DNA from: Candidatus Nitrosothermus koennekei
GTDB taxonomy: Archaea > Thermoproteota > Nitrososphaeria > Nitrososphaerales > Nitrosocaldaceae
Assembly: GCA_013538715.1 (NCBI GenBank)
Contig: JACAFH010000001.1
Coordinates: 124,001 to 188,000, forward strand
Direction of reading: 5' to 3'
Length of the DNA stretch: 64,000 nucleotides
Under the pieces are notes generated by a model. The model was given only the letters and a program-made list of their open reading frames with translations. It was not told the origin of the DNA and searched no databases. The first letter of the stretch is position 1. Each line of letters starts with the position of its first letter. The position numbers and the translations under genes were made by a program. Below, piece after piece: positions 2,361 to 4,192 of the stretch.

Positions 2361-2436
2361 GCTCCGGTGGTGTAGTCCGGTTAAGCATAGCGGCCTCTCG
2401 AGCCGTTGATCCCGGGTTCAAATCCCGGCCGGAGCA
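2361..2436 (+). tRNA. tRNA-Glu (anticodon CUC)
   Basis: Full cloverleaf, no intron. Acceptor GCTCCGG (2361-2367) pairs with CCGGAGC (2429-2435), discriminator A at 2436. The anticodon stem GCGGC/GCCGT encloses the 7-nt loop CTCTCGA, so the anticodon is CTC (Glu, GAG codons). The T arm is CCGGG-TTCAAAT-CCCGG. Stems are nearly all G:C although the surroundings are AT-rich. CCA is not encoded. Its 3' end is only 10 nt from the stop codon of the opposing MNIO gene. Confidence 0.95.
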
Positions 2437-2446
2437 TTCTTAAGAA

Positions 2447-3880
2447 TTATCTCTCATTGGTATCTGCTATATCGATGTTAGATATGCCATTCTCACCTAT
2501 CTTTATCTCAAAGATACCTGGTTCTACAGAACTTGGTAACTGCATCTTTAATAATGACTCTAGTACTTTTAGAGGGTTGTATTTAAAATATATGATCTCA
2601 TTCTTATCTTCAATTTTACACAAAAGTATTGTCTTTTCTAATGTTAAGATATCTTTAAGATACTCTATTTTTAGGTCTAAATCTTCTAGATATTTAATAA
2701 ACGATAATGCCTCATCGGTTGTAAATAGTTTAGGCATATCTATCTTCCAAAAATCCGATAATATACTTTCTATATCTAAAGAGAGCATTAGTAATCTAGT
2801 AGTTAAAGGTAAGGCTCTTGCTATCATCGATGCACGAAATGATGAGATCAATTTATTGTAAAGTGGTATTGCAGGATCTGAAGATAATCTATCACCTAGG
2901 AGAGTATTAATCTTAAAGCCATTAACTAATCTTGCAAGTGTATATTCCCATTCTTCTGGTATATAATCTGGTTCATTGTAATTATATATACCTCTTTCAT
3001 AACTATATTCTCTTATATCTGAACCTCGAATATCCCACAAACTATGTAATATCTTTAATTGTTCTCTTAAAATATTCTGCTCAATCTTAGTTGCATAAGA
3101 TGGATATAACTCAAATATTATAGCATGAAGATTCCTTAATCGTGGTATTACATTCTTAGCTATCTCTATTAATTGATCCGGAATAGTTCCAGCATGTGCA
3201 TCTAGCCAATAGTTATCCTCTCTAGTACCGCCTGCAAGATGAACCTCCCATACTTTATCTAATGGAATATTGCTTATGAAATCCTCAACCTTTTCTCTTC
3301 CATTAAGTTCATTAGCCCAAATATTATGCAGATCTAGTAATATACCACATTCACTTCTCTCAACTATCATCCTTACAAATTCACTATCTCTAACTTCATT
3401 ATTATTTGGCTTAAGATAATTCACACCTGTTTCAATAGCAAAAGGAACTTGAAATTCATCTTTTAAAATATTTATATTTCTACTTATGTATTCAACACTT
3501 CTCTTGCTTTGGATAGGTGGCAATAAGAATCCAGTATTAAACATGATGCCATTATATCTTACTGAATTAAATGACAAATGTTCACTGATCCATGGAGATT
3601 CTATCTCTTTTATTATATTATTGAGTAAGAGTATCTGTTTATAATCTGGAATCACTGTTCCACCTATTGGTATACTTACGCTGTGAATAATCTTCTTACA
3701 TGGAATATTTTTTATCTTCTCCATTACCTCTTTATCCATTTTAAATTCATCAGATAATGTATGGTGCCAAAAGTTTTGAGGTTCTATCTCTATAACATCT
3801 ATAAGATCTATGTTAGATTGTATGAATGGTTCCAAAGATAAAAAATATGTTAGACCTACCCCTCTGTCTGGTATATTCAT
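2447..3880 (-). CDS. DUF692 / MNIO-family iron oxidative enzyme fused to a partner-like C-terminal domain
   Basis: 477 aa. Residues 1-285 are a DUF692 (UPF0276) TIM barrel, the family of MbnB, TglH and other multinuclear non-heme iron enzymes that oxidatively modify peptides, often at cysteine. Visible candidate metal ligands: H66, E100-H101 (SEHLS), E150 (AIETGVNY), D183, H185 and N190 (LLDLHNIWAN), H214 (VHLAGG), D227 and H229 (DAHAG), E257 (FELYPS). Residues 310-477 are a helical domain with RALPLTTRLL and YLKDILTLEK, resembling the separate MbnC/DUF2063-type partner that normally delivers the precursor; the fusion is my inference. Its ATG overlaps the stop of the 94-aa CxxCH gene (ATGA), implying translational coupling. 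The peptide-modification role is family-based; the substrate is unproven. Confidence 0.85.
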   Translation of the reverse strand: MNIPDRGVGLTYFLSLEPFIQSNIDLIDVIEIEPQNFWHHTLSDEFKMDKEVMEKIKNIPCKKIIHSVSIPIGGTVIPDYKQILLLNNIIKEIESPWISEHLSFNSVRYNGIMFNTGFLLPPIQSKRSVEYISRNINILKDEFQVPFAIETGVNYLKPNNNEVRDSEFVRMIVERSECGILLDLHNIWANELNGREKVEDFISNIPLDKVWEVHLAGGTREDNYWLDAHAGTIPDQLIEIAKNVIPRLRNLHAIIFELYPSYATKIEQNILREQLKILHSLWDIRGSDIREYSYERGIYNYNEPDYIPEEWEYTLARLVNGFKINTLLGDRLSSDPAIPLYNKLISSFRASMIARALPLTTRLLMLSLDIESILSDFWKIDMPKLFTTDEALSFIKYLEDLDLKIEYLKDILTLEKTILLCKIEDKNEIIYFKYNPLKVLESLLKMQLPSSVEPGIFEIKIGENGISNIDIADTNER

Positions 3881-4161
3881 GTTGATATATTGAATGAGTC
3901 TCCTAATGACTTTGGTTCTAAGTTCTTTGTTATTACAAAATCATTCATAAATACACGCCTTATATCTCTTGTTATGCTATACACATCTTTGAAGAGTATA
4001 TCTTTACCAGAATGACAGTTTGGGCAACCTACTATATCAAGTATATTCCTCATACTCGCTTGTATTTGTTCAAAGTTATATGATATATCTTTAGGTAAGA
4101 CTACTATATGATCATATGTTATGCTATCTCTTACTATTTTCCTACTTATATCGCTTGCCAT
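3877..4161 (-). CDS. small CPNCHSG protein, candidate substrate of the MNIO enzyme
   Basis: 94 aa from the ATG at 4161; a longer frame from TTG at 4176 is less likely because a TATA box at 4183-4192 places the transcript start at the ATG. The only cysteines are in GCPNCHSGKDI (C46, C49, H50 counted from the ATG), preceded by a helical, charged 40-residue region and followed by about 40 more residues. There is no signal peptide or membrane segment, so a CxxCH heme-c site is unlikely. Stop and MNIO start overlap as ATGA. By analogy with MNIO systems this could be the precursor, with the first ~40 residues as leader and the Cys motif as core; it could instead be an accessory metal-binding protein. 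No database relative was checked. Confidence 0.7.
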   Translation of the reverse strand: MASDISRKIVRDSITYDHIVVLPKDISYNFEQIQASMRNILDIVGCPNCHSGKDILFKDVYSITRDIRRVFMNDFVITKNLEPKSLGDSFNIST

Positions 4162-4182
4162 TGCTTCTATTAACAAAAAGTT

Positions 4183-4192
4183 GTATAAAAAG
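4183..4192 (-). promoter_or_regulatory. TATA box of the CxxCH-MNIO operon
   Basis: On the minus strand this reads CTTTTTATAC. Its centre is about 27 nt before the ATG at 4161, the expected archaeal TBP spacing for a transcript starting on the start codon. It decides the start of the small protein and indicates a dedicated promoter for the two-gene unit. Confidence 0.6.

Follow-up and report, generated by a model that had tools for sequence, protein, structure and literature searches.

Does an archaeal gene pair encode a complete protein-modification system, in which an MNIO enzyme carries its own partner domain and acts on the product of the gene beside it? MNIO enzymes carry out unusual cysteine chemistry. 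Machinery of this kind has been described almost solely in bacteria, and a landscape survey describes the precursors from bacteria alone (PMC12452194). In the present study, we analysed such a pair in the window, that is, the whole stretch of 64,000 nucleotides under study, and the following features were recognised.

3877 to 4161, minus strand: small gene, probable substrate (precursor); 94-aa ORF with an ATG start and without a signal peptide.
4006 to 4026, minus strand: CPNCHSG motif, probable modification site; it holds the sole cysteines of the small protein.
4184 to 4191, minus strand: TATA box TTTTTATA, with a spacing of -30 to the small gene's ATG; the same octamer and distance were found in Candidatus Nitrosocaldus tengchongensis.
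2447 to 3880, minus strand: MNIO gene, 477 aa, with a fused C-terminal partner-like domain; PF05114 match and iron ligands.
3026 to 3880, minus strand: MNIO TIM-barrel domain, residues 1-285; Pfam match over residues 17-254, phmmer and fold match.
2450 to 2983, minus strand: probable partner domain fused at the C-terminus (residues about 300-477); hhalign, TglI match and order of secondary structure.
2624 to 2887, minus strand: partner-like core, residues 332-419; hhalign alignment of 87 columns, nearly ungapped, over the whole DUF2063 helical region.

The host genome, Ca. Nitrosothermus, belongs to the Nitrosocaldaceae, a family of heat-loving, ammonia-oxidising archaea that also includes Ca. 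Nitrosocaldus. The assembly comprised 1,458,290 bases in 34 contigs, and the GC content of the window was 32%. The composition comparison gave 0.307 for the gene pair and 0.32 for its surroundings, and the neighbours were ordinary genes of the host genome. A bacterial contaminant is thus an unlikely source, and the pair does not look like one, which agrees with the archaeal origin proposed in an earlier reading of the sequence only. The pair was flanked by tRNA-Glu (2361-2436, plus strand) on one side and by an opposite-strand gene, followed by glnA, on the other. Just past the tRNA-Glu begins a gene for a 258-aa protein without a family match (1531-2307), and at 57-590 the window encodes an archaeal zfx-type ferredoxin, which contains zinc and has PPPHHH at its C-terminus.

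The 477-aa protein matched PF05114 with an E-value of 5.7e-41 and a score of 140.9 bits (cut-off 25). phmmer retrieved PDB 3bww (1.4e-19) and TglH (9e-18), and the fold of the enzyme model matched TglH 8hi7 at 9.2e-12. The iron ligands of TglH have been reported as H71, H107, E151, D184, N187, H216, D229, H231 and E258 (PMC10880893). In the alignment to TglH, their equivalents were H66, H101, E150, D183, N186, H214, D227, H229 and E257, and all nine positions were invariant among 23 aligned MNIOs. Judged on its sequence, the protein is a genuine MNIO/DUF692 enzyme, and oxidase activity is predicted. Its scores lay below the cut-offs of the NCBIfam equivalogs, namely BufB (116/310 bits), HvfB (104/360), ApyH (115/400), ChrH (60/600) and MbnB (14/325). 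In a tree of MNIO domains, the two archaeal enzymes shared a very long branch that joined a Burkholderia MNIO, which may reflect long-branch attraction.

The small gene and the enzyme gene are joined by an ATGA overlap of their reading frames (3877-4161 and 2447-3880). The two cysteines of the small protein, Cys46 and Cys49, both lie within GCPNCHSG, and the DNA pattern for CPNCHSG occurred once in the host genome. An alternative TTG start 15 nt upstream of the ATG would yield 99 aa; the 94-aa leaderless start was favoured because the TATA box lies exactly at -30 from the ATG in both genomes. This is the spacing expected when an archaeal transcript is leaderless. The sequence-only reading had described a 94-aa leaderless gene with cysteines confined to GCPNCHSG, overlapping by ATGA a DUF692-family enzyme with all expected His, Asp and Glu motifs, and these claims were borne out by the ORF, the promoter and the nine ligands. 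Both genes lie within the range that it gave (2447-4192), although that range continues past the start codon far enough to include the TATA box.

That reading had also called for comparative genomics, which revealed the pair in a second genus. Among 60 relatives, the small protein had one clear match, in Ca. Nitrosocaldus tengchongensis QQ.bins.115137, where its gene again overlaps by ATGA a gene for a 547-aa enzyme with the same C-terminal extension. Identity was 58% between the enzymes and 59% between the small proteins, about equal to the amino-acid identity of 57% reported between Nitrosothermus and Nitrosocaldus (PMC7819960). The flanking genes differ between the genera; the overlap and the TATA box at -30 were kept. 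Since the same pair with the same overlap recurs in another genus at 58-59% identity, the finding is not due to chance. The motif GCPNCHSGxDILFK was invariant between the two small proteins, which are the two known intact copies and test the conservation of single residues thinly.

Outside these two genomes, PF05114 was practically absent. Among 400 Nitrososphaeria genomes, theirs were the only real PF05114 proteins, and two other hits in the phylum were weak or broken. A PF05114 hit from Nitrosopumilaceae was rejected as an MNIO; it is a sugar-isomerase-like TIM barrel that has no MNIO ligands. Among further genome contigs, the enzyme query found nothing and the small-protein query found N. 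tengchongensis alone. Viral contigs gave no match to either the two enzymes or the small protein, and a broader MNIO alignment recovered from them one unrelated phage-borne MNIO. A phage-like contig, IMGVR_UViG_3300041409_000508 (L026:1811-4804), carries an MNIO beside a 665-aa gene whose product has ferritin-like features and, near its C-terminus, Cys-rich repeats (CAGQGGC); this product might be an MNIO substrate. On plasmids, no relative of the small protein was found, and the MNIO-domain matches listed reached at most 57% of the query, none with the extension. On a Tsukamurella plasmid (L036:932-3944), an MNIO gene directly follows fdxA and dapC and precedes two small hypothetical genes, an arrangement unlike bufferin clusters. 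Phages held no relatives of the pair.

A record of loss was observed between pyrG and trpA. The cassette of N. tengchongensis sits between these two genes, while that of Nitrosothermus lies at a different genome location. In three other Nitrosocaldus genomes, pyrG and trpA are neighbours about 300 nt apart, with no relic between them. In an N. cavascurensis-type genome (contig of 1,577,284 bases), the gap measured 2.0 kb, and its first 505 bases aligned to N. tengchongensis at 67% identity (DNA E=3e-48). In N. tengchongensis, the aligned stretch covers the intergenic region, the small gene over its full length and about two dozen codons at the start of the MNIO gene. In this relic, neither the start codon nor the reading frame nor the cysteine motif of the small gene survives, and nearly all of the MNIO gene is gone. 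On this sequence comparison, the N. cavascurensis lineage once had the cassette, and its two genes decayed jointly. The whole gap lies at L046:2556-4567, and beyond the relic it contains, on the opposite strand, a gene for a 310-aa copper protein of the plastocyanin family (PF00127, 5.1e-11), which occupies the former place of the MNIO gene. The joint decay is our best evidence that the small gene and the MNIO work together. Collectively, the conserved overlap, the conserved two-gene cassette and the joint decay supported a functional coupling of the two genes, and the loss pattern within one genus constitutes a natural experiment on the function of the cassette.

What the small protein does in this coupling can be judged from gene order. 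In bacterial clusters, a Cys-containing precursor gene stands before the MNIO gene and the partner gene after it (PMC12452194), and the same order, with or without a partner, was seen in the plasmid loci that we examined. The archaeal small gene lies directly upstream of the MNIO gene and encodes a conserved Cys motif. In addition, bacterial precursors that lack a signal peptide have been linked to PME-type 2 partners (PMC12452194), and a leaderless small protein together with a TglI-like domain, discussed below, agrees with this link. On account of these two parallels, the small protein is likely the substrate, and Cys46 and Cys49 are likely the targets. A different role was also considered, in which the small protein is a second accessory subunit, for example for redox or metal delivery, and the enzyme acts on some other protein or on a small molecule. 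Its conservation does extend well beyond the CxxC motif, for example through FMNDFVITK after it, and an obvious division into leader and core was not seen, while the joint loss would be expected of a subunit no less than of a substrate. However, a Cys gene immediately before an MNIO gene encodes the precursor in bacterial loci (PMC12452194; plasmid loci), and the role of the partner seems to be taken by the fused domain. We regard such a subunit as unlikely.

The C-terminal extension had been noted earlier as about 170 residues containing RALPLTTRLL and YLKDILTLEK; it was found to comprise about 190 residues beyond the barrel, with both motifs located as described. A two-sequence profile of this domain (Nitrosothermus and N. 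tengchongensis) was compared by hhalign with 18 partner proteins from plasmid MNIO clusters, of which the first eight all matched PF09836. Residues 332-419 aligned to the DUF2063 helical region with E-values of 0.005-0.008, as a single comparison, and with a probability of just 5-7%. The global score of 15.1 exceeded all of 200 column shuffles (maximum 13.0), and the local score of 23.2 exceeded 299 of 300, ranking second of 301; control comparisons with reversed profiles, the MNIO domain and the small protein scored 10-16. With 18,950 NCBIfam models, the sole match of the N. tengchongensis domain up to E=10 was TglI, in the same region (E=0.081), and the Nitrosothermus domain by itself had no match. 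A reverse search of the genomes with the TglI model found nothing. The predicted order of secondary structure is a helical bundle followed by a strand, a helix and two strands (beta-alpha-beta-beta). PME-type 2 partners have been reported to combine a helical domain with a complete or truncated RRE-type part (PMC12452194), and the archaeal order resembles those in which it is truncated. In both genomes, the partner-like domain lies in the same reading frame as the MNIO, and no separate partner gene follows the MNIO gene.

Some of the searches were negative. Pfam gave no match for the C-terminal domain up to E=10, and the DUF2063 signature that marks PME-type 1 partners was absent. AlphaFold models built from two sequences were poor (pLDDT 48 and 57); a fold search with the C-terminal model (pLDDT 57) matched no partner protein, which is uninformative because the model was too poor. 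The extension could instead be a lineage-specific helical domain, for instance for oligomerisation or for binding another protein, and the missing Pfam and fold matches and the low hhalign probability are in keeping with that. On the other side, an ordered, nearly ungapped alignment across the DUF2063 helical region surpassed the shuffles, TglI was the only match among all of the models, and a separate partner gene after the MNIO gene was lacking in both genomes. A lineage-specific domain of this kind is judged improbable. The fused-partner proposal of the sequence-only reading was moderately supported by the shuffle comparison, the TglI match and the secondary-structure order, and it gained nothing from Pfam or fold searches. 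Each line of support is weak alone; taken together, they suggested that the C-terminal extension is probably an MNIO partner domain.

Attachment of c-type haem needs an export signal. An ordinary zinc- or haem-binding CxxCH protein that is merely co-transcribed with the MNIO is quite unlikely, for although CPNCH fits both the c-type haem consensus and half a zinc ribbon, and Pfam and NCBIfam searches returned no meaningful family beyond a marginal zinc-ribbon match (E=0.18), the protein has two cysteines alone, inspection of the 94 aa revealed no signal sequence at the N-terminus of the kind borne by an exported c-type cytochrome, and the pair has been conserved as a unit with a coding overlap and decayed as one.

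We consider it rather probable that the small protein is the substrate of a self-contained fusion of MNIO and partner, by which its cysteines are modified oxidatively. A leaderless transcript would deliver first the small cytoplasmic protein and then the MNIO-type multi-iron oxidase. The fused C-terminal domain would do the job of separate partners such as TglI, MbnC or BufC, keeping the enzyme in its active form and bringing the small protein to the iron site. With O2, the enzyme would oxidise at least one of the two GCPNCHSG cysteines, which would become a Cys-derived group. The modified protein would remain whole and intracellular, and it may serve as a metal- or redox-active centre. That it probably stays in the cell is suggested by the cassette, which contains no protease, exporter or signal peptide; in neither genome is the pair flanked by genes for a protease, exporter, metal regulator or transporter, and the flanking genes gave no evidence of a metal role. 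Secretion of the product or a function in copper handling could be drawn from analogy only. A gene for a TldD-type protease, with an HEILGH motif recognised by eye, lies some 4.4-5.9 kb ahead of the window in the same genome (L010:2103-3554). TldD homologues mature some MNIO-modified peptides, but proteins of this family occur widely among archaea.

Several known systems resemble the cassette in part. The best fold match of the enzyme model was TglH of the 3-thiaglutamate system (TglH/TglI) of Pseudomonas syringae, with which it shares all iron ligands and the DLHN motif. TglH and TglI are separate proteins, whereas the archaeal enzyme and its partner-like domain form one chain. The substrate TglA receives a C-terminal Cys from a PEARL enzyme, whereas the cysteines of the archaeal small protein are internal; a PF04738 search for a PEARL (lantibiotic dehydratase-like) gene gave no match, but it was uninformative, as the control genomes did not give one either. 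Bufferin clusters (BufA-BufB-BufC, DUF2282/DUF692/DUF2063) share the order of a Cys precursor followed by an MNIO. In contrast to them, the archaeal enzyme, at 116 bits against a cut-off of 310, falls far short of BufB, the presumed precursor lacks a signal peptide, the partner is fused and is not a Pfam DUF2063 protein, and genes for DoxX or a sigma factor are absent. MbnB/MbnC of methanobactin synthesis likewise pairs an MNIO with a partner and acts on peptide cysteines, although the archaeal enzyme scores only 14 bits with MbnB, against a cut-off of 325. The bacterial adjamnio-7 putative precursors lack a signal peptide, contain a CxxC motif and adjoin a small MNIO cluster (PMC12452194); the archaeal small protein is like them by this description. 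In Vibrio methanobactin-like clusters, MovX is an MNIO with a winged-helix domain that has been suggested to replace the partner (PMC12452194). The archaeal extra domain differs in combining a TglI/DUF2063-like helical part with strands, rather than a winged helix alone, and the cassette lacks a methanobactin-like precursor.

In the searchable literature, we found no description of an archaeal MNIO system or of an MNIO joined to a TglI/DUF2063-like partner, so that the locus can still be called undescribed within that scope, with MovX (PMC12452194) as the nearest precedent, a possible case of an MNIO that is its own partner. Both the MNIO enzymes and their separate partners are already known; the fused two-gene version in archaea is apparently new. 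The fusion was sought in Nitrososphaeria genomes, viral contigs, plasmids and phages, and its uniqueness is not claimed. Whether this archaeal enzyme-partner polypeptide, in a predicted two-gene unit for protein modification as opposed to a cluster for a peptide natural product, modifies a folded cytoplasmic CxxCH protein in place, never to be exported, seems to us evenly balanced. If true, the cassette would offer the simplest setting in which to examine the cooperation between enzyme and partner, and probably a heat-stable one. The metabolism of ammonia-oxidising archaea depends on copper enzymes, and MNIO-type protein modification would, if the proposal is true, be present in these organisms.
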